DNA of 56,419 bases from a virus: positions 1-56,419 of the IMG/VR virus record IMGVR_UViG_3300028708_000002; one strand, written 5' to 3'. Positions 4,107-24,491 of the stretch are shown in pieces. Position numbers and translations under genes: made by a program. Position 1 is the stretch's first letter; each line of letters opens with the position of its first letter. Below the pieces are notes generated by a model that made no database searches, was not told the DNA's origin, and was given only the letters and a program-made list of their open reading frames with translations.

Positions 4107-6395
4107 TTACTCCTCCTCCGGGTCAATGACCACGATCTCCTCTGCGTACATGCTCGCTCCAAAGCCTCCCTTGGACTTCCGTGCCCGCACATAGATGACA
4201 TCGTGTCCCGGCCTGATCTTTGACAGAGCCCGCTGCAGTCGCGGGTAGTCGAACCGGTTCACGCGGACGTACACATCCTCATCATCCGCGTCATAGCAGT
4301 GCAACACACAGGAGGTCGGGAGGTCGGGACGGCGCATCTCCTTTCTAATGGTCGCCACGTCCTTGCCGCTACGGGCGCGCTCATCTTCAATGAAGTCCTT
4401 GTACTCCTTCAGCTTGACGTAGCCCATCCAGTAGATCCGCGCGTCAGCCGGAGCGTCTAGGATGCCGTCGCTGTTGTGCGTAGGACGGGGCAGCGGGATC
4501 GAGCCGGAAGCGATATCGGCAGCCACAGCGGCCAGCCCGCGCCGCACGCGGAGCAGCCCGAACGGATCGTCAGACTCAAGCTGCTCGCGGAACTTCTCCA
4601 GCACGGCCGGACCGACCCCGTTCACCTCAAGGAGTTGATCAACCGACACCAGCGCCTTGCCCTTCTCCGCCGCGTACCTGTCCAGCTTTCGCCCCAGGAC
4701 CTCGCCCACCCCGTTCAGCTGGGTGTAGCCTGCCAGGACCTCGCCGGAGCGGATCGTCCACGAGCTACCCGACGCGCCGAGGACGACGCCGCGAACCTTG
4801 ATGCCGTGCTTCTCCGCATCCTTGATGAGACGCGCCCACTTCTCCTTCGGGAGCTTCGCCAGCTGCGCCGCATAGAACGCCTCTGGGTAGTGGACCTTCA
4901 TGTACTGCGCCCAGAATCCGATCAGCGTGTAGGAGAGGCTGTGCGCGTACACAAAGGCGTAGGACGCGGAGGTCACGACCCGCGACCAGACCTCCATCGC
5001 TAGCTTCCGCGAGACCCCGTGGAGGTCGGCGCTCCGGTTCATGAAGTCCTCGGCCGATGTGTTGAACTGTGCCTCGCCTAGCTTCTGCGAGATGATGCGC
5101 CGGATGTCGTGGACGCGCCGGAGCGGGAGCCCACCGAACGTCGAGAGCGCCCGCAGGATCTGCTCCTGATAGATGATGGTCCCTTTGGTACCCTTGGTGA
5201 TCTCATCGATGATCGGGTGCAGCGATACCATCTCCCGCTTGCCGTACTTGACGTCGATGTACTCGGCTGTGGTGCCGCTGAACAGAGGACCGGGGCGGGA
5301 CAGCCCGTTGATATCAACACACTCCAGGAAGGAGTCCGGCTTGACGTCTCGGGTCACTAGCCGCGTGGCCCGCCCCTCAAACTGGAAGATGCCGACCACG
5401 TCACAGCGCCGGAACGCCTCCAGCGTCTCGGGATCGTCGGTCGGGATCGCGTACAGATCCTCCAGGCTCATCCCGACCTCGGCGATAGCGCTGGCGAGCA
5501 TCCCCATAGTCTTCAGTCCAAGTAGGTCGATCTTCATCAGCCCGAGGTACTCAGCGTCATACTTGTTCACCGAGACGGCGACGGTCCTCCGCCCCTTCGC
5601 GTCCTCGCGCTCATACTGTGCGCAGACCTCGGCGATGGGTGTGTTGGTGATGATGAGTCCGGCGGAGTGGGTCGACATCCCCCGGTAGTTGCCCTCCAGT
5701 GCCACTGCCATCTTAAGCGCCGGGTGCTTCTCCAGGATCTCCGCCGCTTGCGGGAACATGGCGAGCGTGTCCTCAAGCGTCGCGTCCGCACGGGAGTCTC
5801 CACCCGACCGGTCGATGATCATATCCTTCAGAGCCTCGGCGTCGCTCTTGGGGATGCGGTAGACGCGCGCTACATCATCGATCGTGTTGCGGCCCTTGAA
5901 CTTGGTGAAGGTCCCGACGTTACCGACCCTGTCCTGATTGAACTTCTCTGCCGCGTGCGCCTGAACCTCGTTGCGACGCCCATCGTCAAAGTCGATGTCG
6001 ATGTCTGGTGGGTCCTCCCGGCCGGGCACGATGAACCGGGAGAAGTCCATCAGCGGGTAGAGCAACGGGTCGACCTCGGTGATGCGGAGAAGGAAGCACA
6101 CCAGCGACGCAGCCGAGGAGCCGCGCCCCGGACCGACTGCGATGCCGTGATCCTTGGCGTACCTGACGATGTAGGAGACCACAAGGAAGTAGTCCACGAA
6201 GTCCTGGCCTACGATCAGCCTCATCTCCAGCCTGATCTGGTCGACCGATCCCGGTTGCGGAGTCCAGCCGTGTGCTAGCCGGTACCGCCATCCCTCACGG
6301 AGCCAGTCCCACAGCAACTCTTCGGACGGGATAGGCCTGCCAGTACCAGACCGGTCGCGCTCCTTCACAGGGGCGAGCCGTGAGCTTGTTGCCAA
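4107..6395 (-). CDS. dnaE: DNA polymerase III alpha, polymerase core (split gene, lacks PHP)
   Basis: This 762-residue protein covers the palm, thumb, fingers and beta-binding part of bacterial C-family polymerases but has no PHP domain. Visible motifs in order are GPGRGSSAASLV, PPDIDIDFDDGRR with the two catalytic Asp, GLMKIDLLGLKTM with the third Asp, GIFQFEGRATRLV, and SRPGPLFSG. A helix-hairpin-helix-like LEVNGVGPAVLEKF comes later. The first start after an in-frame stop is TTG at 6393-6395; GTG ten codons on is an alternative. The matching PHP half is the separate gene at 7024-7974. The two proteins meet end to end at the usual linker, so they presumably work as a complex. Confidence 0.93.
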   Translation of the reverse strand: MATSSRLAPVKERDRSGTGRPIPSEELLWDWLREGWRYRLAHGWTPQPGSVDQIRLEMRLIVGQDFVDYFLVVSYIVRYAKDHGIAVGPGRGSSAASLVCFLLRITEVDPLLYPLMDFSRFIVPGREDPPDIDIDFDDGRRNEVQAHAAEKFNQDRVGNVGTFTKFKGRNTIDDVARVYRIPKSDAEALKDMIIDRSGGDSRADATLEDTLAMFPQAAEILEKHPALKMAVALEGNYRGMSTHSAGLIITNTPIAEVCAQYEREDAKGRRTVAVSVNKYDAEYLGLMKIDLLGLKTMGMLASAIAEVGMSLEDLYAIPTDDPETLEAFRRCDVVGIFQFEGRATRLVTRDVKPDSFLECVDINGLSRPGPLFSGTTAEYIDVKYGKREMVSLHPIIDEITKGTKGTIIYQEQILRALSTFGGLPLRRVHDIRRIISQKLGEAQFNTSAEDFMNRSADLHGVSRKLAMEVWSRVVTSASYAFVYAHSLSYTLIGFWAQYMKVHYPEAFYAAQLAKLPKEKWARLIKDAEKHGIKVRGVVLGASGSSWTIRSGEVLAGYTQLNGVGEVLGRKLDRYAAEKGKALVSVDQLLEVNGVGPAVLEKFREQLESDDPFGLLRVRRGLAAVAADIASGSIPLPRPTHNSDGILDAPADARIYWMGYVKLKEYKDFIEDERARSGKDVATIRKEMRRPDLPTSCVLHCYDADDEDVYVRVNRFDYPRLQRALSKIRPGHDVIYVRARKSKGGFGASMYAEEIVVIDPEEE

Positions 6396-6818: not shown

Positions 6819-7031
6819 TCACTTCTTTGGTGCGTCGCACGGACCGTGATGAGCGTAGTGGAGCCGACAGGCCAGGTTAGAGCACGGTCCCTTGATGTCG
6901 CGCAGTTCCGTCTCCCGGATCAGGAGGACGTTCACCAGCGCCGACACTTGGCTCTGCAGGCGCTTGATGGTCGCCTCATCCTTCCCGCCCCGGCCAGGCT
7001 CCGATCGCACCGGCTTCATCCTGTTACTCAT
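6819..7031 (-). CDS. Small coiled-coil Cys/His protein, 70 aa
   Basis: The frame overlaps the PHP gene stop by 8 bases. The middle, TIKRLQSQVSALVNVLLIRETEL, has the heptad pattern of a short coiled coil. The C-terminal GPCSNLACRLHYAHHGPCD carries three Cys and three His and could bind zinc. It lies between the two halves of the polymerase, so a linking role is conceivable but unproven. Confidence 0.65.
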   Translation of the reverse strand: MSNRMKPVRSEPGRGGKDEATIKRLQSQVSALVNVLLIRETELRDIKGPCSNLACRLHYAHHGPCDAPKK

Positions 7032-7974
7032 TCCATCTCCTGTCGGATTCCGTTCCGGCGAACCGGAACCGTGCGGCCTTGGGAAGGGTTACGTTGCAGC
7101 GCCCAGCGATCACACCTGTGTTGCGGAGCGCCTGCCGTGCGCCGTCCTCGCTCAGGCCCGCCCGCAGCGCGCGCTCCCAGATCCCTTCCGTGACAACAGC
7201 TCCGTCGTCATCGAGCACGTTCGTGTCGCTGAGGGGCGGGTAGTCGGGCACGTCGTACTCCCACGAGGACAGTTGCTGAGCGATACTGTTGGTACCGCGA
7301 CCAGCCGCGTGAAGCAGCGCTCTCATCTCGCTCTGGCCGGGCAGGAGGGTATGGACGTCGGAGGTCGCCACGAGCGGAATCCCCAGCTGTCGATGCATTG
7401 ACTCATAGATCGTGTTGATCTCAATCGAGCGCTGAAGCTCCGGGAAGATCTGACACTCCAGATAGAACCGGTCGCCGAGGAGGGCCTGGAAGCGCTCGGC
7501 TAGCTCCAGGGCCTTGAACACACTCGCCTGCTCCACAGGGATCATCTTTCCGCCGAGGAGAGTACAGGCGAGGAGCGAGTCAGAGCATCCTGATAGGACG
7601 ATCAGGCCCTCGTGGTGATCCCGCAGCATCGGCCCGAGGACGGTGGGCCACTTGTGGAAGCCCTCGGCCCACGACCGGGTGCACAGCCGCATCAGGTTGG
7701 CGTAGCCGTCCTGGTTCATCGCCAGCAGGGTAAGATGGCACTTCCGGTCGCTCTTGGGCTCCAGCGCGGTGTACGCCTCCAGCCCGAAGATGGGCTTGAT
7801 GCCTGCCTTCAGCGCAGCCTTCTCCAGGCCTACATGGGAGGAGACATTGCCGTGCTCAGTGAGCGCAAGCGCCGTCATACCTAGCTCGACGGCACGAGCG
7901 ACGTGCTGCGCCGGAGTCCCATAGGCGTCCATGTAGGAGAAGGTCGAGTGGTGATGAAGGCTCACGTACTTCAA
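7024..7974 (-). CDS. dnaE: DNA polymerase III alpha, PHP domain (split gene)
   Basis: The 316-residue product is the N-terminal PHP part of a C-family polymerase. It shows LHHHSTFSYMDAYGTP at the start, TEHGNVSSHVGLEKAALKAG, KPIFGLEAYT, HLTLLAMN, VLSGCSDS and VATSDVHTL. These hold His, Glu, Cys and Asp positions typical of a metal-loaded, potentially exonucleolytic PHP. I chose TTG at 7972-7974 because the upstream small gene stops in TTGA and the conserved sequence begins four codons later. The protein ends ITAGRCNVTLPKAARF-like (VIAGRCNVTLPKAARF), exactly where the polymerase core protein takes over. It may proofread in trans, which is inference. Confidence 0.9.
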   Translation of the reverse strand: MKYVSLHHHSTFSYMDAYGTPAQHVARAVELGMTALALTEHGNVSSHVGLEKAALKAGIKPIFGLEAYTALEPKSDRKCHLTLLAMNQDGYANLMRLCTRSWAEGFHKWPTVLGPMLRDHHEGLIVLSGCSDSLLACTLLGGKMIPVEQASVFKALELAERFQALLGDRFYLECQIFPELQRSIEINTIYESMHRQLGIPLVATSDVHTLLPGQSEMRALLHAAGRGTNSIAQQLSSWEYDVPDYPPLSDTNVLDDDGAVVTEGIWERALRAGLSEDGARQALRNTGVIAGRCNVTLPKAARFRFAGTESDRRWNE

Positions 7975-8078
7975 CGCCGGTGCCCCCGCTGCTGGCAGTG
8001 GTACATCTGTGACAGGCGACCGATCACATACCCGACGATCACCCCTGCGAAAGCAGCGGTGAGGATTGCGTAGCCCAT
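7971..8078 (-). CDS. Tiny single-pass membrane protein, 35 aa
   Basis: The ATG at 8076-8078 follows AGGGAGGATCTA, and the TGA overlaps the TTG start of the PHP gene. The hydrophobic YAILTAAFAGVIVGYVIG spans residues 3-20, followed by a His/Arg/Cys-rich tail. The stop-start overlap on both sides supports translation. Function unknown. Confidence 0.55.
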   Translation of the reverse strand: MGYAILTAAFAGVIVGYVIGRLSQMYHCQQRGHRR

Positions 8079-8257
8079 TAGATCCTCCCTCGCATATGGT
8101 CCTCAAGGTGCTTCGCCATCTCGGCGGAGCCCTCCTCGGTCGTGTCCGTCTCCTTCGGACACCGGGCGCACCGGAAGGTACGGCCCCAGTTAGCCATCAG
8201 GACGTTGCGGGCGAAGCTCTCCGGCGTCAACGGTTGCGGTTGCGGGTCCTCGCTCAT
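8078..8257 (-). CDS. Small C2H2-type zinc-finger-like protein, 59 aa
   Basis: AGGAG precedes the ATG at 8255-8257, and the TAA overlaps the next ATG by one base. FRCARCPKE followed by AKHLEDHMRG gives a C-x2-C ... H-x3-H pattern that could hold one zinc. It may bind nucleic acid, but no target can be named. Confidence 0.65.
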   Translation of the reverse strand: MSEDPQPQPLTPESFARNVLMANWGRTFRCARCPKETDTTEEGSAEMAKHLEDHMRGRI

Positions 8258-12469: not shown

Positions 12470-12688
12470 TCATTGAAGGTGATCGTGCTCCTGTCCTTCG
12501 CTCCATCGCTCCCAGTCGTGGAGTATGCCGTGATAGATCCGCCAGGTGGTGGGGTTGTTGAGACGGCGCGGCTCCGACTCCCGCCCCGGCAGCGGACGGA
12601 AGTCCATCGCCAGGTCCTCGCTGTGGCGCGCCTGGAGATGCTTAATGAACGTCTCATCGTCCATGTCCTCTGTGTGCGGGACTCTCAT
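12470..12688 (-). CDS. Hypothetical His-rich protein, 72 aa
   Basis: Starts MRVPHTEDMDDETFIKHLQARH at 12686-12688, overlapping the BldC-like gene stop (ATGA). It is acidic to neutral, helical, and has several His (HLQARHSEDL, RIYHGILHDWERW). No family is recognised. Confidence 0.65.
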   Translation of the reverse strand: MRVPHTEDMDDETFIKHLQARHSEDLAMDFRPLPGRESEPRRLNNPTTWRIYHGILHDWERWSEGQEHDHLQ

Positions 12689-12906
12689 CCCTTGTTCAGG
12701 CCTGCCATGTATGCCCGGAACACAACGTCTGCCCGGAACCTGTGGTGCCCGCCCGGCGTGTTCACGACAGAAAGCCTTCCAGCTTGCCCCCACCGCGTGA
12801 CTGTCTTCGGGTCAACACGGAACAGATCAGCCACCTCGCCCGGCTTGATGAGCGCACCGGGATCGTTGACAGCCAACTCTTCCAGTCGAGCTATGGTCAT
12901 GCTCAT
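12685..12906 (-). CDS. BldC-like MerR-type DNA-binding protein
   Basis: The 73-residue protein contains KPGEVADLFRVDPKTVTRWG and RLSVVNTPGGHHRF. This is the winged helix-turn-helix of the small MerR-like BldC family, with the PGGHxRF wing. BldC binds direct repeats and controls development in Streptomyces. A phage copy could control phage or host promoters, or act as a small excisionase-like factor, although no integrase is present. It is strong evidence for an actinobacterial host. Confidence 0.85.
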   Translation of the reverse strand: MSMTIARLEELAVNDPGALIKPGEVADLFRVDPKTVTRWGQAGRLSVVNTPGGHHRFRADVVFRAYMAGLNKG

Positions 12907-17362: not shown

Positions 17363-19338
17363 CAACGCAAGCTCTCCGTCAGTTCAATGACGCGACGGTT
17401 GAACTCTATACCGCGCCGCCCGTCGAGCACCTTGTGCGAGCCTCGCTCCAATTCAGTGTTAGCAAGGGCAATCGCCTCCTCGATGGTGCCGAGTGACCGC
17501 AGGTACCAGTAGAAGACGGGGCGGGGGTTGGAGACTCGGTGGATCCGGTCCTCGGCCTGCGCCTGGTCATCCGGCACCCAGGTCTCATCGAGGAACACCA
17601 TGTGGTCGGCGGAGTCGATCGTCAACGCCACACCGCCTGTCCTGGTCTGCAGAAGGAGCACCTGCGCTCCGCCGTCTGTCCGGTTGAAGTCCCCCAGGAC
17701 CTCCGACCGGTTCGTGGTGTCCCCGGTGATGATTCCCGTGGTAGCGATGGAGGAAAGCGCTTCCCTCACCAACTCCAGCATCTGGGTGTACTGCGACAAG
17801 ACCACGACCTTGCCGGTGGGGTCCTCGGGATAGCCCATCTCTGTCAGCATCTGCACCAGGTAGTCGACCTTGTTGGAAGGCATTGTCGGGATCAGGATCG
17901 TCTTCGTGACCTGGTGCTTGTGGTCCGTCCTGTCCGGGCAGGCGGAGTCCTTGCACTTCTGCCAGACCTGGCGCTGCTCCGGACGGCCAGCCGAGGAGGC
18001 GAACTGCTTGAGCCGCGTCATCTCCGCGAGCGTCCCGATGGCGCTGAGGTCACCTTCGGCCAAGATGGCAACAGAGGTCTCCTCCATCTCCCGATATGCC
18101 TTCTCCTGTGCGGGGTCCAGCGGCAGCCACACGCCGCGACCGAGCGCCACCGGGGTCTCGCTCTCCGGGCCGTCCACGAGGTTGGTCCCCATGTAGCTCT
18201 TGGGCGGGAGGTCCGGCGCGACCTCGGCTTTGGTTCGCCGCAACATGATCCGGTCCAGGTCGCTCCACAGCAGCGCCTCCCGGTCCTCCCGGAGCCCACC
18301 GAGGTTGCGCGATCCGCCGTAGCCGAAGGTCACGTTGAAGTAGGTCTCGACCCACTGCCAGTAGCCCCGGAACTCCTCAGGCCGGAGCCAGTTCAGCGTG
18401 CCCCAGAGCAGCTGCGGCTTGCTCCGCATCGGCGTACCTGAGGAGGCCACGCGCAGCCCGTCCTGGCGCGTACGGAGGAGCATCATCCCGTTGCGTACCT
18501 GGGTGGGAGTACCGCGTCGGCGGATGAGAGCGTTCTGGCTCTCATCGAGCAGGATGGCACCCCACTCGCGCTGGAATAGCTCGGGCCACTCGTGCTCGTG
18601 ACGGGTCTTGGTCCGGCGTGGGTCGTGCTCGCACACCAACTCCTTCTTGTGGCGTACAGGTGTCTCCCGCCCACACTGCCCACAGATCCACCAACTCTTG
18701 GTCGAGACCATCTGGGGGTGGACGACAACCCATGTATTATGGAGCGAGGGCTCAGCCTTGATCTCATCCCAAACGCGCTGCCGGGCCGTCCGTCCGTCTG
18801 GGAAGTTCACCACGATCCCGTCGTCCAGCCAGCGCAGTAGCTCGCGCGCCCACACGGTCTCGGTTGCGGTCTTGGTCGTCACCACGAGGTAGGGACCGGT
18901 CACCCCATCCTCGATCACGCCGCCGATGAGCTCCAGGGTCTTCCCAAGCCCCATCTCGTCTGCGATCAGGACGTTGCGGCCCTTGGCGATGAACCTCGCC
19001 GCCACACGCTGGTAGGTCCGGGCCTCCATCGCCTGCGCGAGGTCCGGCGCGACGTCAGGCACATGCTCCAGGTCCGCGTCCATCAGCTGCCCGAGGTCGC
19101 GCATGGCCTCGCTCGTGGCGCGCCGGTCACTGTACCAGGCGGCAAGCTCGCTGCCCACCTTCATCGTGTCGCCGAAGCGCTCCCGGAGCGCGACGCAGGA
19201 GGCTGCTGTGAGCGGGACCGTCCAGGCCGCGTCGCGCTTGGAGAAGTACGCGCCTGGGATCGACTCACCAAGCCGCGCCACATGATGGTCAGAGCGGATG
19301 CGGATGCGCCGCCCAGCCAGATCTGCTATCACCGTCAT
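17362..19338 (-). CDS. SNF2-family DNA helicase/translocase
   Basis: The 658-residue protein has motif I ADEMGLGKT (residues 126-134), a DEAH-like DESQN box, SSGTPMRSKPQ, and motif VI QAQAEDRIHRVSN. The N-terminal 100 residues resemble the small HARP-like region of SMARCAL1-type annealing helicases, by eye only. CGQCGRE ... LVCEHD and CKDSACPD may hold zinc. The start ATG lies behind GAAGGGAACGAAG with the GCGAGAG leader. It likely remodels replication forks or displaces proteins from DNA. Confidence 0.88.
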   Translation of the reverse strand: MTVIADLAGRRIRIRSDHHVARLGESIPGAYFSKRDAAWTVPLTAASCVALRERFGDTMKVGSELAAWYSDRRATSEAMRDLGQLMDADLEHVPDVAPDLAQAMEARTYQRVAARFIAKGRNVLIADEMGLGKTLELIGGVIEDGVTGPYLVVTTKTATETVWARELLRWLDDGIVVNFPDGRTARQRVWDEIKAEPSLHNTWVVVHPQMVSTKSWWICGQCGRETPVRHKKELVCEHDPRRTKTRHEHEWPELFQREWGAILLDESQNALIRRRGTPTQVRNGMMLLRTRQDGLRVASSGTPMRSKPQLLWGTLNWLRPEEFRGYWQWVETYFNVTFGYGGSRNLGGLREDREALLWSDLDRIMLRRTKAEVAPDLPPKSYMGTNLVDGPESETPVALGRGVWLPLDPAQEKAYREMEETSVAILAEGDLSAIGTLAEMTRLKQFASSAGRPEQRQVWQKCKDSACPDRTDHKHQVTKTILIPTMPSNKVDYLVQMLTEMGYPEDPTGKVVVLSQYTQMLELVREALSSIATTGIITGDTTNRSEVLGDFNRTDGGAQVLLLQTRTGGVALTIDSADHMVFLDETWVPDDQAQAEDRIHRVSNPRPVFYWYLRSLGTIEEAIALANTELERGSHKVLDGRRGIEFNRRVIELTESLR

Positions 19339-19359
19339 CTTCGTTCCCTTCTCTCGCCT
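19339..19359 (-). promoter_or_regulatory. Start-associated leader, GAAGGGAACGAAG with GGCGAGAG
   Basis: On the transcript GGCGAGAG is followed directly by AAGGGAACGAAG and the ATG of the SNF2 gene. The stem seen at the other leaders is absent, because only three pairs can form here. Confidence 0.5.
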
Positions 19360-19400
19360 ATCACCGAGGAGCGTACGCCAATTGGCCTGCTAACGGAATG

Positions 19401-19430
19401 ATGGCCCGCCCTCCGGAGAGAGCGGGCCAT
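19401..19430 (-). terminator. Hairpin terminator, 9-bp stem
   Basis: ATGGCCCGC at 19401-19409 pairs perfectly with GCGGGCCAT at 19422-19430, loop 12 bases. It lies 11 bases past the stop of the membrane coiled-coil gene. Only short T clusters follow, so it may also act as an RNA-stabilising end. Confidence 0.6.
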
Positions 19431-19440
19431 CACGGTCCGG

Positions 19441-20148
19441 TCAGACGTTCAGCGGTACGGGGCTCTTGGGGGCCACCGTCTGAAGCTCCAGCGACTTGAT
19501 AACCATCGCCTGGATCTCCGTCTTCTTCAGGCCATCGAACGGGAGGCCCATGTCGGCTGCCTCGTAACGGAGGTCCGCGAGCCGCAGCCCGAGCACCCGG
19601 TTGCGCTCGCGGGTGAGGCGAGCCTTTTCGTTGATCGCGTCCTGCTCGACCTTGCTCCGCTTCGCGCCAACCTCGCGGGCAACCTGGACGTTCGACTCCT
19701 CGGCGAGGATCGCCTTGAAGTCCGGCTTGATGAGGCTCTTGAGGATCTCGGCACCGGCGATGAGGAGGACTACCGCGATGAACGCGAATCCCAGCACCAG
19801 CGTCGCGGAGCCGAGGAAGTTGATCGTGGCACTCACGCCCACCGGGAAGACCAGCAGGATCAGCGCCATCTTCTTGGCCGGTGCGGCCATCCCCGCCGCG
19901 CTCAGGACCTTGACGCAAAGCAGGATGAACATGTCCATCGCCAGCGGGATGATCGCCGCGCTGAACGGGTCGGCCTTGGCAGCGTGACCAAGGAAGTGGA
20001 ACTGGTGCTGGAAGCTAGCAACCATCACCAGCAGGGTGATCGCGAGGCCCAGGCGCTTCGCCCACTTGATCGCGGACAGCATCTCCTCGACGGCCTTGGA
20101 GCCGTACTGCTCGGCGAACTTCTGGCCGGGGGTCTTGGTGGAGTTCAT
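19441..20148 (-). CDS. Four-helix membrane protein with coiled-coil tail (DUF2637-like)
   Basis: The 235-residue protein has four hydrophobic segments (AITLLVMVASF, IIPLAMDMFILLCVKVL, ALILLVFPVGVSATINFL, LVLGFAFIAVVLLIAG) and then about 90 charged, helical residues. The PLAMD in the second helix is like the PxxxD of DUF2637 membrane proteins of Actinobacteria; the match is tentative. The leader carries a GCGAG hairpin. Possibly a membrane anchor for phage complexes. Confidence 0.65.
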   Translation of the reverse strand: MNSTKTPGQKFAEQYGSKAVEEMLSAIKWAKRLGLAITLLVMVASFQHQFHFLGHAAKADPFSAAIIPLAMDMFILLCVKVLSAAGMAAPAKKMALILLVFPVGVSATINFLGSATLVLGFAFIAVVLLIAGAEILKSLIKPDFKAILAEESNVQVAREVGAKRSKVEQDAINEKARLTRERNRVLGLRLADLRYEAADMGLPFDGLKKTEIQAMVIKSLELQTVAPKSPVPLNV

Positions 20149-20210
20149 CTCGGTTCCCTTCGTTGGAGGAAGACTCGCCATCTTCCCTTGCAACACCAAC
20201 GCTACTCCAA
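20149..20210 (-). promoter_or_regulatory. Hairpin leader and upstream box of membrane protein gene
   Basis: Stem GGAAGA (20168-20173) / TCTTCC (20181-20186) has a 7-base loop reading TGGCGAG on the transcript, and GAAGGGAACCGAG then precedes the ATG. Farther upstream lies TTGGAGTAGCGTTG (complement of 20197-20210), a box shared with two other leaders. Confidence 0.6.
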
Positions 20211-20213
20211 CTG

Positions 20214-20249
20214 CAACGGGATGGCTACATTTCCGCAGCCATCCCGTTG
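20214..20249 (-). terminator. Strong hairpin terminator, 13-bp stem
   Basis: CAACGGGATGGCT (20214-20226) pairs perfectly with AGCCATCCCGTTG (20237-20249), loop 10. It lies about 18 bases beyond the TAA of the 317-residue gene and just before the promoter-like box of the next leader, so it separates two transcription units. Confidence 0.75.
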
Positions 20250-20266
20250 GTAAATATGAAGATTCT

Positions 20267-21220
20267 TTACGCCTCGATGTCTACCAGCACATTCTCTGAG
20301 GATCTAGTCTGCCCGCCCGTGAACGCCTTGCCCCGTCCCACAGCCACGAGGGCGGAGAGCCGGAACGCCCGGAAGCCAGTCCCAGCCTGGCAGCAGAACA
20401 GCACCACTCGCTCGCCCAGCTGCTCGGTGACGCGGACCGTCCTGGGGTCGCCCACCTTGGCCGTCTCCGTCCCGCCGCTCAGCCGGTTGTGCCACTTCAC
20501 CACATGCCCGGCAATCGCGTCCACCACAACCCGCTCCGGCGCGGTGGCGGGGTCGAACGGGAGGCGTACCACCTTGGGCATGACCTCCGCGTCCCTGCGG
20601 CGGAACGCCTTGTTGGTGGCGACCCTCGCCAACTCCTCGGCTGCCTCGGTCGGCTTGCGCTCCGCGAGCTTCAACGCCGCGCTGACATTCCGCGTCTGCA
20701 CCGTCCGGTCGCCCACCGTGTAGGTCGCTCCAGCGTTGACATACACGCCGCTGTCCCACGCCTGGTGGATCGCCTCGATGACGTCAGCGCCGCGCGTCGC
20801 CACAACCTCGGTCAGTTCACCCTCGGTCCGGTAATGCCCGATCCACCCTAGCGCCTCGATAGCCGTGCAGAACACCCGAGCCTTGGCCTCGCTCTTGGTT
20901 TCCGGTACTGTGGCCTCTCCGTTGGAGCTAGGGGCCTTAGCGGCAGTCTTCTGCACCGGCTCAGCCGGGCGGGTACGCGGCCTGGGACGCTCAGCCTCGG
21001 TCTTGTCGTGGAGCCGCAGCGCGTCCTGGAGCGCCTGCTTGCCCATCGTCCGTGCCTCCAGGACCTCCCGGCGCACGGCCTCGGCACGAAGCTCGGTGAG
21101 CCTCCAGTCGCCGTAGACATCAGCCGTCTCCACGATCGTGTTCGGCATCCGCTGTGCGGCTCGCTCGCGCTTGGCGTCCGCGACCCGCCGGAGCCCTCCC
21201 TTGCGTACTGTGGTCGTCAT
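20267..21220 (-). CDS. Hypothetical two-part protein, 317 aa
   Basis: Starts MTTTVRKGGLRRVADAKRER. About 75 basic, helical residues come first, then a Pro/Ala linker, then a C-terminal domain of about 200 residues (FCTAIEALGWIGHYRTEGEL, VVLFCCQAGTGFRAFRL). No family is recognised. Expression from a GCGAGAG leader groups it with the DUF2786 and SAP proteins. Confidence 0.7.
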   Translation of the reverse strand: MTTTVRKGGLRRVADAKRERAAQRMPNTIVETADVYGDWRLTELRAEAVRREVLEARTMGKQALQDALRLHDKTEAERPRPRTRPAEPVQKTAAKAPSSNGEATVPETKSEAKARVFCTAIEALGWIGHYRTEGELTEVVATRGADVIEAIHQAWDSGVYVNAGATYTVGDRTVQTRNVSAALKLAERKPTEAAEELARVATNKAFRRRDAEVMPKVVRLPFDPATAPERVVVDAIAGHVVKWHNRLSGGTETAKVGDPRTVRVTEQLGERVVLFCCQAGTGFRAFRLSALVAVGRGKAFTGGQTRSSENVLVDIEA

Positions 21221-21402
21221 CTCAGTCCCCTTCTCTTCTCTCGCCTGATCTTGTTCCTGCGGCGGTCGACCTTCCGCAGTACCCTCTCGGGTATTCCCTG
21301 TGCTATGAACGGCTTCTGGGTGATCCGCTCCGCCCACTTGAACCATCCCCGTTGGTACGGATCGACGTTGCCGACCGGATAGCCTCCGGCCTCACTCGGC
21401 AC
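21217..21402 (-). CDS. Hypothetical basic protein, 61 aa
   Basis: Ends in a run of Arg/Lys (KVDRRRNKIRREKRRG) that suggests nucleic-acid binding. It begins MPSEAGGYPVGNVDPYQRGW. The stop overlaps the next ATG (ATGA), and its start overlaps the preceding gene by 11 bases. Confidence 0.65.
   Translation of the reverse strand: MPSEAGGYPVGNVDPYQRGWFKWAERITQKPFIAQGIPERVLRKVDRRRNKIRREKRRGLR
21221..21246 (-). promoter_or_regulatory. Start-associated leader with GGCGAGAG
   Basis: The transcript reads GGCGAGAG, AAGAG, then AAGGGGACTGAG and the ATG at 21218-21220. The loop sequence is present but no stem of more than three pairs was found. The leader lies inside the upstream small gene. Confidence 0.45.
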
Positions 21403-21673
21403 GGCGGCACACCTCCAACTTCTCCTCCGGCCATCCTGGAACCGCCCACCCGCTCTCCATCTCGATGAAGTTGAGGCTGTGGGGCAGGGTCCCGCCCGTC
21501 ACCCGGCGCACAACCGCGTCGCCGCCATACCCCTGGAGCGTGTCGCCCTGCACGAGGCGACGGACCTCCACCAACCGCGTCTCGCCGGACGCAAGCCGCG
21601 CCATCCGCTCGCGCTGCTCCTTGGTAACCCGAACGGTCTTGCTTGGCCTGGTGGCTACTGCCTTGCTGACCAT
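21392..21673 (-). CDS. Hypothetical protein, 93 aa
   Basis: ATG at 21671-21673 follows GAAGGGAACAAGAAG. The N-terminus KAVATRPSKTVRVTKEQRERM resembles a short DNA-binding or toxin-antitoxin-like helix, but no clear helix-turn-helix is seen. The rest is beta-rich. The upstream TACTCC resembles part of the shared box. Confidence 0.6.
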   Translation of the reverse strand: MVSKAVATRPSKTVRVTKEQRERMARLASGETRLVEVRRLVQGDTLQGYGGDAVVRRVTGGTLPHSLNFIEMESGWAVPGWPEEKLEVCRRAE

Positions 21674-21772
21674 CTTCTTGTTCCCTTCTCTGGAGTTTCG
21701 TCCCGAGCTTACTCCTGGAGGCTGCAGGCCGCGCGCCGGAGGACGTGTCTCGGCGCGCGGCCGCAACGGGCA

Positions 21773-22774
21773 CTAGCTGGTGAGCTCACCGCTGGGAGTC
21801 CGAGTGCCTGCCTCCTCCACGCGCTGGGCGCGTGAAGACCTATCAACCTCGACCTCGCTCGCAGCGTCCCGCCCGAGAGCAGCACCGGCGCGAGCCTCAG
21901 CCGAGTAGTGGTAACGCTGGTACCGCGCCTCATCGGCTTGCGTCCAGCCCTTCTTGCGGGACTTCTTGGCGGGGGTGGTCTCCTGAACCTCGATCTCGAC
22001 CGGCCGCAGCTGCGGGAAGAATCCATAGAACGCCTCCAGCACCCGCTCCTCGCGCCCGTGCAGCTGGACCGCGCCGCCGAGGCTGTCCGCGCCGTCCCGC
22101 GCCTCCCGCAGCTGGGACTGGAGACCGTTGCTGAATCCGTTGGCGAAGCCGTAGCGGAAGGTCTTGACGTTGACGCCGCGACCGGCCACCATCTCTTCGA
22201 CGCCGCGACGCTCGCACTCCGCACGGTACATCTTCGTGGCCCGCGTGGTGTGGGTGGCGTCGCGGTTGCCCCAGAGCGCGTCCGCGATCTCATAGCGGTT
22301 CCATCCTGCCGACCGGAGCCGGAACACATTCACCGCGTCGCTGAGGCTGGGGTCCGGGTTGACGTCGATCCGGTTGATGAAGACGAGACGCGCGGCGTTG
22401 AACAGGTACTCCGCATACCGCACGTCACCCTCGTAGCCGACCAGCGCGGCCTGTGCCATCCAGCCGTCGACCGGGTGGAAGTAGTTCTTGATATGGACGT
22501 TAACGCCGCAGTGATCGGCGATCCGGCGGATGAAGATGGAGTACCAGCTGGAGTACCGCGTGGTGTTGAGTCGGCAGAGGTCGATGATGGAGAGGATCGG
22601 CTCAACGGCGGTGGCGTCCTGCGCCAGCAGATGCTCCTGCTCGATCCGGTACTTGCGCATAAGCTCCTCGGCCTTGGCCCGGTAGGTCGCTGCGGCCTCA
22701 GGCGGGGTAGCGGGATCCTCGGCCACGTTCAGCAGTCCGCTGATCTTGTTGAGGATCACATCCAGGTTAGCCAT
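21773..22774 (-). CDS. DUF2786 domain protein, 333 aa
   Basis: The N-terminus ILNKISGLLNVAEDPATPPEA followed by KAEELMRKYRIEQ is the DUF2786 helical repeat (residues about 7-46). The next 150 residues resemble the C-terminal region that usually accompanies it. A basic, probably disordered tail follows. Function is unknown across the family; many actinophages carry one copy near replication or host-takeover genes. Confidence 0.75.
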   Translation of the reverse strand: MANLDVILNKISGLLNVAEDPATPPEAAATYRAKAEELMRKYRIEQEHLLAQDATAVEPILSIIDLCRLNTTRYSSWYSIFIRRIADHCGVNVHIKNYFHPVDGWMAQAALVGYEGDVRYAEYLFNAARLVFINRIDVNPDPSLSDAVNVFRLRSAGWNRYEIADALWGNRDATHTTRATKMYRAECERRGVEEMVAGRGVNVKTFRYGFANGFSNGLQSQLREARDGADSLGGAVQLHGREERVLEAFYGFFPQLRPVEIEVQETTPAKKSRKKGWTQADEARYQRYHYSAEARAGAALGRDAASEVEVDRSSRAQRVEEAGTRTPSGELTS

Positions 22775-22808
22775 CTCGGTTCCCTTCTAAGAGCCCTCTC
22801 GCTGGGCT
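22775..22808 (-). promoter_or_regulatory. Hairpin leader of DUF2786 gene
   Basis: AGCCC (22792-22796) pairs with GGGCT (22804-22808) around a 7-base loop reading AGCGAGA on the transcript, followed by GAAGGGAACCGAG and the ATG. The stem bases differ from the other leaders while pairing is kept. Confidence 0.6.
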
Positions 22809-22830
22809 AGGACTGAGCGTCCTGGGCGAG

Positions 22831-22853
22831 GAGCGAGGCGCTGGGCCTCGCTC
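22831..22853 (-). terminator. Hairpin terminator, 9-bp stem
   Basis: GAGCGAGGC (22831-22839) pairs with GCCTCGCTC (22845-22853), loop 5, immediately beyond the TGA of the SAP/zinc gene. No long T-run follows. Confidence 0.6.
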
Positions 22854-22866
22854 CCACCCGATGGGC

Positions 22867-23598
22867 TCAGGCCAGCTTCTGCAGGATCTCGCTGACGTTC
22901 CGGACGTTCTTGCCGTTGACCTGGGTGACGATCCGGCGACCGGAGTCCGACCACACGCAGACGATACCGGCCTTGCTAAGCTCCAGCATCACGCCGCCGT
23001 CCGTCTCGGTGATCTTCGCGCCGGAGAGGCCGCGAGCCTTGAGGAGCGCCTTGACCTCGGTGGCCTTGGTCGCGCCGTAGGCCTTGATCGTGACGTTGAA
23101 CGTCATGCCGAGTCGCGGGGTGCCTACCCGGACCTTCGCGCCGCTGGCCTTGTTGAGGTTCGGCTGGCAGATCCAGCAGGACTCCATCTCCTGCTTGGTC
23201 TCCGCGATGTAAGCGTCAACCTCGGCCTGCTCGGTGAAGTGGGTGTTCTCCAGCGAGTAGGTGTCGATGTCGTCGTGGCCGTGGTCGCTGTGGGCGTTTT
23301 CCCATCCAGCCTCTTCGTAGCAAAGCTCGCAGGTCATGCCCTCGGCGGTGAGGGGGCTGGCCGGGCGGATCTCGCAGACCGCGCAACGCTTCTTGCCGGT
23401 GGCCTTGGCGGGCTTGGACTCCGGGGTGACGACTGCCTGCCGCTGGTTGTCAATCTCAACCTTCATCGCGTAGAGCTTGTCCAGGAGGTCAGCCTTGCGG
23501 CCGCTCGACATCCCCTTGACCCCAACCTGGCCAGCCAGCTTGCGAAGCTCGACGGTGGTCATGTTCTCCAGGTTAACCTGCATCAGGTCGATGTTCAT
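22867..23598 (-). CDS. SAP domain protein with zinc-binding Cys pairs, 243 aa
   Basis: Residues about 13-45 (MTTVELRKLAGQVGVKGM, GRKADLLDKLYAM) are a SAP-type helix-extension-helix DNA-binding motif. KRCAVCEIRP and MTCELCYEE form one zinc site, and SCWICQPN may add another. The C-terminal 90 residues look like a separate alpha/beta domain. It probably binds DNA; it may alter host chromosome or transcription, which is inference. Confidence 0.7.
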   Translation of the reverse strand: MNIDLMQVNLENMTTVELRKLAGQVGVKGMSSGRKADLLDKLYAMKVEIDNQRQAVVTPESKPAKATGKKRCAVCEIRPASPLTAEGMTCELCYEEAGWENAHSDHGHDDIDTYSLENTHFTEQAEVDAYIAETKQEMESCWICQPNLNKASGAKVRVGTPRLGMTFNVTIKAYGATKATEVKALLKARGLSGAKITETDGGVMLELSKAGIVCVWSDSGRRIVTQVNGKNVRNVSEILQKLA

Positions 23599-23655
23599 TT
23601 CAGTTCCCTTCGTTTCGGGGCTCTCGCCGCCCCTTTCAAGGACAACGCTACTCCA
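23599..23655 (-). promoter_or_regulatory. Hairpin leader and upstream box of SAP/zinc gene
   Basis: GGGGC (23617-23621) pairs with GCCCC (23629-23633); the 7-base loop reads GGCGAGA. GAAGGGAACTGAA precedes the ATG. TGGAGTAGCGTTG, complement of 23643-23655, is the shared box, and TTGCAATAAGAT just upstream is AT-richer and promoter-like. Confidence 0.6.
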
Positions 23656-23676
23656 TCTTATTGCAATTGGCTACAA

Positions 23677-24198
23677 TTACACTCTACCTGCGCAAACAGG
23701 TCCAATGCCGGCCTCGATCGAAATCTCATCGGTGAGCGTCCGGCCGCACACGCAGCAGACGCCATAGAGCTTCCCGAACTGCTGCGCCTCCTCCAGCGTC
23801 ATCCGGTCCTCCGGGCGGAGCTTGAGGATGCCGCCTGGGACGTACTCAAAGTGCCACTCTCCTCTGGGCTCATCGGTCAGGACCTTGGCGTAAAGCCTGC
23901 GGCCGTCGCCACCGGCGCGGTTCCACTGGACCTTCCAGATCTCCCCGGTCGTGCCCTCGTTGTGCGGGTCCTCGATGATGGCCCGGTACATGCCATCCTG
24001 CGTCACCAGCGCCCGGTCAAATCGGAGATCCGTCCCGCTGGATGGGGGAGACGTCCGGATGATCTCAGAGCCATAATCCGTGCGCATCCAATCCGGCTCG
24101 CTCGGACGGGTAGGGGGCCGGTGGGACTCGAAAGCCTGGCACTCGCGCACCTGCGCCACAGTCTCGTGGCGTCCCTCGCAATGTCCGCACTTGATCAT
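23677..24198 (-). CDS. DUF6011 protein with N-terminal Cys/His finger, 173 aa
   Basis: I start at ATG 24196-24198. MIKCGHCEGRHETVAQVREC holds Cys/His ligands of one finger. The C-terminal GVCCVCGRTLTDE and GIGPVCAGRV is the DUF6011 zinc motif found in many actinobacterial and phage proteins. The middle resembles a small beta domain. Role unknown, probably nucleic-acid or protein binding. Confidence 0.75.
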   Translation of the reverse strand: MIKCGHCEGRHETVAQVRECQAFESHRPPTRPSEPDWMRTDYGSEIIRTSPPSSGTDLRFDRALVTQDGMYRAIIEDPHNEGTTGEIWKVQWNRAGGDGRRLYAKVLTDEPRGEWHFEYVPGGILKLRPEDRMTLEEAQQFGKLYGVCCVCGRTLTDEISIEAGIGPVCAGRV

Positions 24199-24359
24199 CT
24201 CACGCCTCCCCGGATTTCGTACTTGGCTAGGCAGCGATCGCAATCGCACTCCACGACGCTCCCGTTAGCGTTAAGCGCGTTACCCTGCGCATCCATCCAC
24301 GGATAGGTCTTCTCTTCGGTCTCCGGGTTGGTTTCCGGCCGAGTCTCTTCGTGCTCCAT
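24195..24359 (-). CDS. Small acidic protein with CxCxxC, 54 aa
   Basis: ATG at 24357-24359 follows GAAGGGAATCAAG. The protein is acidic (EHEETRPETNPETEEK) and ends in ECDCDRCLAKYEIRGG, a compact three-Cys motif. The TGA overlaps the next ATG. It is the first gene of the unit downstream of the late terminator. Confidence 0.6.
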   Translation of the reverse strand: MEHEETRPETNPETEEKTYPWMDAQGNALNANGSVVECDCDRCLAKYEIRGGVR

Positions 24360-24420
24360 CTTGATTCCCTTCTACGGGGAGGTCTCTCGCTCCTCCCTTT
24401 ACGACGCCAATCCTACTCCA
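24360..24420 (-). promoter_or_regulatory. Hairpin leader and upstream box of first early unit
   Basis: GGGAGG (24377-24382) pairs with CCTCCC (24392-24397); the 9-base loop reads AGCGAGAGA. TTGGAGTAGGATTGG is read from the complement strand near 24406-24420. AAAGAATCTTC (complement of 24469-24479) lies about 50 bases farther up, at the same distance as in the leader near 20200. Confidence 0.6.
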
Positions 24421-24491
24421 AGTTTTGACGGGAGGAAAGTCGAGAGCGTTGGATCTACCAGGGGTAACGAAGATTCTTTTGCAAAGAGAAG

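Follow-up and report, generated by a model that had tools for sequence, protein, structure and literature searches.

Why do several genes of one virus carry, just ahead of their start codons, hairpins with the same loop on different stems? The question is raised by IMG/VR virus record IMGVR_UViG_3300028708_000002, whose full 56,419 nucleotides form the window analysed here, and in which a sequence-only reading had noticed hairpins with a GCGAG loop ahead of the gene starts at 20148, 22774, 23598 and 24359. All four hairpins are present with the stems it described, as is the stemless GGCGAGAG ahead of the starts at 19338 and 21220, and every gene in question lies on the minus strand (Table 1). 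The element is best described as a cis-regulatory hairpin of phage RNA whose loop is fixed. At the level of sequence, its place in the order promoter, hairpin, Shine-Dalgarno sequence (SD) and ATG, the covariation of its stem, the constancy of its loop within a genome and the clade-specific type of that loop are established; from these properties we infer a factor that reads the loop and an effect of the hairpin.

Results

In each of the four window leaders the hairpin lies 4-7 nt ahead of GAAGGGAA and 17-18 nt ahead of the ATG, and in three of them a GGAG-TANNNT box stands 11-12 nt upstream of the hairpin, the leader of the 22774 gene being the exception. Relatives, uncultured soil phages like the window's virus, were reached through protein alignments of the helicase and a Sak4-like protein (~40-60% identity). 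Two near-identical contigs show almost no variation; the relatives have the same module with other stems, such as GGCCG(AGCGAG)CGGCC, GTGGGG(AGCGAG)CCCCGC and GGGGAGGT(GCGAG)ACCTCCCC, while a sister group has AGAGAG or GGUGAGAG loops, such as GCCCG(AGAGAG)CGGGC and GCGAGG(GGTGAGAG)CCTCGC. The order in the relatives is a sigma70-like promoter (-35, 17 bp, GNG-TANNNT, the -35-like element reading TAGCCA, TTCCCA or TTTGCG), 8-12 nt, a 5-8 bp hairpin, the SD and the start codon. Spacing is tight (9.2 +/- 1.8 nt from the -10 to the hairpin and 18.1 +/- 2.2 nt from the hairpin to the ATG), and if transcription starts ~7 nt past the -10, the predicted beginning of the hairpin is around position +2 to +6; in predicted foldings the SD is a median of 73% unpaired while the hairpin forms. 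The sequence-only reading had overlooked this coupling of promoter to hairpin and the position at the predicted 5′ end, as well as the loop type, which is uniform per genome and differs between two sister clades.

One test of the hairpin comes from 55 leaders that were picked by promoter and SD alone, blind to structure and loop. GNGAG is present in 44 of them, and in 31 of these 44 it is flanked by at least 5 Watson-Crick pairs, compared with 99 of all 2834 GNGAG occurrences in the same DNA (3.5%; Fisher p = 1.6e-37, a nominal value since leaders share ancestry). The loop word fares differently by itself: GGCGAGAG has 10 matches in the window against 6.33 expected, a count that 10 of 100 shuffles equalled, and it was rejected as a plain repeat, so that the case rests on hairpin and position. 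What is enriched is the hairpin setting. Stems around GCGAG are only weakly enriched when counted over all of the DNA and compared with letter permutations (4.4% against 1.9-3.4%), and position therefore had to be used. A seventh gene with GAAGGGAA, starting at 21673, has a GAGTA box and neither GCGAG nor a hairpin.

Nineteen hairpins with six-base loops align without gaps and have two-sided changes at all 6 stem pairs with pairing kept. Their covariation is 0.676, compared with 0.205 +/- 0.042 in shuffled alignments, none of 500 of which reached it, and 0.05-0.22 with the pairing partner displaced. There are 26 two-sided changes and 93.9% of cells are paired, a percentage that is biased by the selection of these hairpins for having a stem, the informative part being the spread of pair types. 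RNAalifold, unaided, recovers the five inner pairs of this stem, and the arms are not conserved, 20 different 5-nt arms occurring among 38 hairpins. The sequence-only reading had proposed that pairing is kept under base change, a proposal that a lack of covariation in relatives would have undermined; it is upheld both by these changes and by the recovery of window leaders with a model built from relatives only. The RNA structure of the leader hairpin is well supported.

That model, a full-leader covariance model (R2) built from 34 leaders with the window left out, finds three of the window hairpin leaders at E 6e-14 to 3e-9; the match at 22780-22808 is weak because a promoter is lacking in the 22774 leader. 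R2 matches at E up to 0.01 occur in each of the 17 whole records searched, the match in record G016 being weak and without such a hairpin, and most matches beyond the training set show a hairpin with the loop expected for their own clade. Controls outside the clade score lower, and the highest of them, L308, itself has GGCGC(GCGAG)GCGCC. A hairpin-only model (R1) contained too little information (controls reached 16.6 bits) and was set aside in favour of R2. In pattern scans of IMG/VR, loop and SD alone gave mostly single chance matches; with the -10 added, true modules across the whole set are restricted to this clade. None of 4227 Rfam models exceeded its gathering threshold, and positions 19300-24480 contain only sub-threshold chance matches; no published description of the element was found in a search that was thin on subscription journals.

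The loop follows lineage. In a loop-blind hairpin search within R2 matches, the seven genomes of the window's clade gave 24 GCGAG loops and 0 GAGAG, and the seven of the sister clade gave 22 GAGAG or GTGAG and 0 GCGAG; R2 itself favours these loops, and the cleaner evidence is the set of leaders chosen without regard to loop or stem. Within a single genome the stems differ and the loop is of one type, and in the helicase tree each loop type corresponds to one clade, with support of 97 and 100. Genes of the same family keep the hairpin with new stems. The gene for a Rho_N/SAP-domain zinc protein is our example of an element retained across the loop switch, its loop being GCGAG in the window and in L269 and of the GAGAG type in most members of the sister clade.

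Upstream of several leader promoters (in the window, L238, L239, L263, L271, L277 and L285) lies AAGAATCTTG, with at most 1 mismatch, at 42-43, 53-54 or 63 bp from the -10, distances spaced a helical turn apart; an additional value of 58 comes from reading the -10 of the same L239 leader in a second way. Of the nine exact copies of AAGAATCTT in 551 kb of strand sequence scanned at the clade loci, eight are just upstream of a leader. AAGAATCTTG is probably a binding site for an activator, judging by this placement, which supports the view that the leader promoters are regulated.

Gene content places the window near the actinobacteriophages. Its DnaE-like polymerase is ~48-50% identical to those of Onyinye and cluster D mycobacteriophages and its terminase ~49% identical to that of Gordonia phages; no near DNA match to it was found among 50,697 phage records, and GTDB genomes, searched for relatives or for hosts, gave only two distant matches at ~30% identity. 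The polymerase is split into two separate open reading frames (window 4107-6395 and 7024-8106, minus strand) that match adjoining parts of phrog_405 (337-901 and 41-321), apparently likewise in relatives. The leaders lie between lysis genes (holin, endolysin) and DNA metabolism genes. Upstream of the 22774 leader, at 22827-22857, is a terminator-like hairpin without a T run, whose pairing is kept while most of its stem bases differ from those in L010 (GGAGCGAGGC/GCCTCGCTCC compared with GGGGCGAACC/GGTTCGCCCC). At window 20199-20240, L270 4060-4100 and L271 3960-4000, the 3′ arm of the preceding gene's terminator-like hairpin extends into the -35 or the spacer of the promoter that follows.

Table 1. 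Leader elements and downstream genes in the window (R2, full-leader covariance model)
Feature	Position	Strand	Remarks
Hairpin GGGAGG(AGCGAGAGA)CCTCCC, gene start 24359	24377..24397	-	R2 match 24366-24441, E 3e-9, model without window
Hairpin GGGGC(GGCGAGA)GCCCC, gene start 23598	23617..23633	-	R2 match 23605-23676, E 5.8e-14
Hairpin AGCCC(AGCGAGA)GGGCT, gene start 22774; promoter not found	22792..22808	-	R2 match 22780-22808 weak, E 0.29
Hairpin GGAAGA(TGGCGAG)TCTTCC, gene start 20148	20168..20186	-	R2 match 20154-20230, E 3.3e-10
Helicase leader, start 19338: promoter (-10 TACGCT 19370-19375), GGCGAGAG (19351-19358), SD; no GCGAG-loop stem	19345..19401	-	R2 E 4.7e-4
GGCGAGAG ahead of gene start 21220; no stem, no promoter match	21238..21245	-	
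-10-like TAGGAT, 24359 leader (context GGAG-TAGGAT)	24410..24415	-	
-35-like TTTCCT, 24359 leader, 17 bp upstream of -10	24433..24438	-	Inferred by spacing
-10-like TAGCGT, 23598 leader	23645..23650	-	
-35-like TAGCCA, 23598 leader	23668..23673	-	
-10-like TAGCGT, 20148 leader	20199..20204	-	
-35-like TAGCCA, 20148 leader, within 3′ arm of terminator-like hairpin	20222..20227	-	
AAAGAATCTT site, 63 bp upstream of -10 (24359 leader)	24470..24479	-	
AAAGAATCTT site, 63 bp upstream of -10 (20148 leader)	20259..20268	-	
Downstream gene, Rho_N/SAP-domain protein with zinc-binding-type cysteines	22867..23598	-	Leader on orthologues in both clades
Downstream gene, DUF2786 protein	21773..22774	-	Hairpin also on orthologues in three relatives
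Downstream gene, 235 aa	19441..20148	-	Hairpin also on orthologue in L269

Discussion

The element is probably a cis-acting RNA, a hairpin at the 5′ end of the mRNA with a loop that a putative factor reads to act on stability or translation. Transcripts of early-region genes would carry, within a few bases of their 5′ end and between a phage-type promoter and the SD, a hairpin of 5-8 bp whose loop, (N0-3)-GNGAG, is rich in purines. The hairpin, which is predicted to leave the SD mostly free, could shield the 5′ end from decay enzymes or act on initiation, and a trans-acting factor, a phage or host protein or, less likely, an RNA, would recognise the loop and jointly set the stability or translation of the tagged messages. 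What speaks for a reader is the contrast, within one genome, between stems that drift freely from leader to leader and a loop that stays the same. The earlier suggestion that the hairpin binds a protein or RNA and defines a shared regulon fits these sequence patterns well. The swap between GCGAG and GAGAG across all leaders of a lineage may reflect co-evolution with such a factor. A broader proposal is plausible rather than probable: a clade of uncultured actinophage-like viruses would mark the 5′ ends of many early mRNAs with hairpins for which there is a dedicated reader, and in a sister lineage the loop (GCGAG to GAGAG, across its leaders) and the reader would have switched together, so that the post-transcriptional regulon became specific to the lineage.

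Several observations weigh against this interpretation. The window loops are less regular than those of the relatives (7-9 nt, with GCGAG not always adjoining the 3′ arm), the hairpin-only model, applied to the window by itself, gives no significant match (best E 0.52), and the 22774 hairpin, having no promoter, would be internal; more generally, the promoters and transcript starts are predictions from sequence. Among the clade's leaders there are some with the promoter and no hairpin, or with a different loop. In the Sak4 tree, which has a shorter alignment and is partly unresolved, the GCGAG group does not come out as a single clade, and the change between GCGAG and GAGAG may have happened only once on the tree. 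A gene for the reader was not found, the best local candidate, the SAP/Rho_N zinc protein, being missing from five hairpin-bearing records (G003-G006 and G017) and thus rejected as a universal reader. A family of ~75 aa proteins (MxDETLMKHLExRHxDD...EWRTFHxxMH; window 12470-12793, minus strand) is present in 10 of 11 hairpin-bearing genomes compared and was not detected by BLAST in two outgroup genomes; as a clade-specific factor it is a weak candidate.

The hairpin might be a generic stabiliser of the ompA type: 5′-dependent decay would be blocked by any stable stem-loop close to the 5′ end, the loop being a mere GNRA-like cap (GCGA, GAGA, GUGA) with no specific reader. A hairpin 2-6 nt from the predicted start and a free SD fit such 5′ stem-loop protection, and the three loop cores all match GNRA, but a stabiliser would permit mixed loops (GAAA, GCAA etc.) in a genome, whereas each genome keeps one type together with a fixed extra G after GNGA. 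A plain stabilising hairpin accounts for the position and not for the loop, and we consider it unlikely. A signal for antitermination or processivity on the model of lambda boxB or HK022 put seems more doubtful still. In it, the nascent hairpin would load on the polymerase, by itself or together with a phage protein, for read-through of terminator-like hairpins between genes. The conserved purine loop on changing stems near a promoter and the terminator-like hairpins between units are as such a signal would have them, but no boxA-like sequence was found adjoining the hairpins, and instead of one hairpin per operon there is, for most tagged genes, a separate promoter and hairpin, with the hairpin-to-ATG spacing held.

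Explanations that deny the hairpin a role as RNA fare worse. Arms that change fully with pairing kept, around a loop that alone is constant, are the opposite of a DNA palindrome, which makes it very improbable that the symmetry only mimics a hairpin in a DNA-level operator or promoter part, despite the rigid spacing from the -10 inside the promoter region. As for chance and common ancestry, the leaders are indeed related through a common promoter and SD, and stems form easily in GC-rich DNA; drift, however, would break the stems of functionless duplicated leaders, whereas pairing has survived two-sided changes and is rare at GNGAG in the background, so that this account is scarcely credible.

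Post-transcriptional control in actinobacterial phages is little known, and the start-associated sequences (SAS) of mycobacteriophages have been without a mechanism since 2011. Here, natural variation provides ~50 leaders in which the stems are scrambled and the loop is of two types, making the question of a loop reader testable at once, and if there is such a factor, GCGAG and GAGAG would be available as two orthogonal RNA tags, together with their readers.

Among known systems, the ompA-type stabilising stem-loops resemble the window element in having a hairpin a few nt from the 5′ end (here at +2 to +6, as predicted from where the -10 lies) and an accessible SD; they are single-gene elements without a loop sequence common to a regulon. 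The boxB hairpin of phage lambda has a conserved loop on a variable stem. With lambda nut boxB and HK022 put the window element shares the character of a hairpin in nascent phage RNA near an early promoter, and the purine-rich-loop hairpin expected of a boxB-like element is found here as a GNGAG loop on changing stems, mostly 8-12 nt past the -10. It differs from nut and put in that one hairpin stands directly before the SD of each gene, rather than one per long operon, and in that no boxA was found beside it: the window has 10 boxA-like sites at 1 mismatch (8 expected), none at the leaders, actinobacterial boxA variants not having been tested. Arginine-rich antiterminators of the N type are too short and too divergent for family models to catch. 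HK022 put RNA acts on RNA polymerase by itself (PMC9378689). The RegA protein of T4 is a precedent for one phage factor that controls ~30 early mRNAs at the initiation region (PMC3014915), but its sites are unstructured, A+U rich, and at or adjoining the AUG. The window hairpin also differs from the cluster O repeat, which is a DNA palindrome (PMC4351075).

The module of promoter and SD seems to be older than the hairpin and present in cultured phages. Leaders of the cluster D mycobacteriophages Hawkeye and SirHarley have a similar promoter and a GAAGGGAATC SD, with weak R2 scores, but the GNGAG hairpin is absent from those inspected. Two cluster D phages have repeated leaders with CGAATCGGGYCGA, GTAACGTTC and GAAGGGAATC before the ATG (L026 6537-6592, L029 6576-6630). 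The SAS of cluster K mycobacteriophages is a near-fixed 13-mer, GGGATAGGAGCCC, adjoining the start codon, and for the associated extended SAS (ESAS) repeats the formation of RNA hairpins was considered unlikely (Pope et al. 2011, PMC3203893). The sequence-only reading had set the element apart from SAS, a distinction that stands: the window has 23 sites with at most 3 mismatches to GGGATAGGAGCCC, compared with 24.96 expected, and none of the four two-mismatch sites is at these leaders. ESAS repeats are 17-bp imperfect inverted repeats with a conserved arm, and the arms here are 5-8 bp and not conserved. What the window element has in common with SAS and ESAS is that of a short repeated element directly before many starts, mostly outside the structural genes, in actinobacteriophages; what distinguishes it is a stem of free sequence, a fixed loop and an attached promoter.

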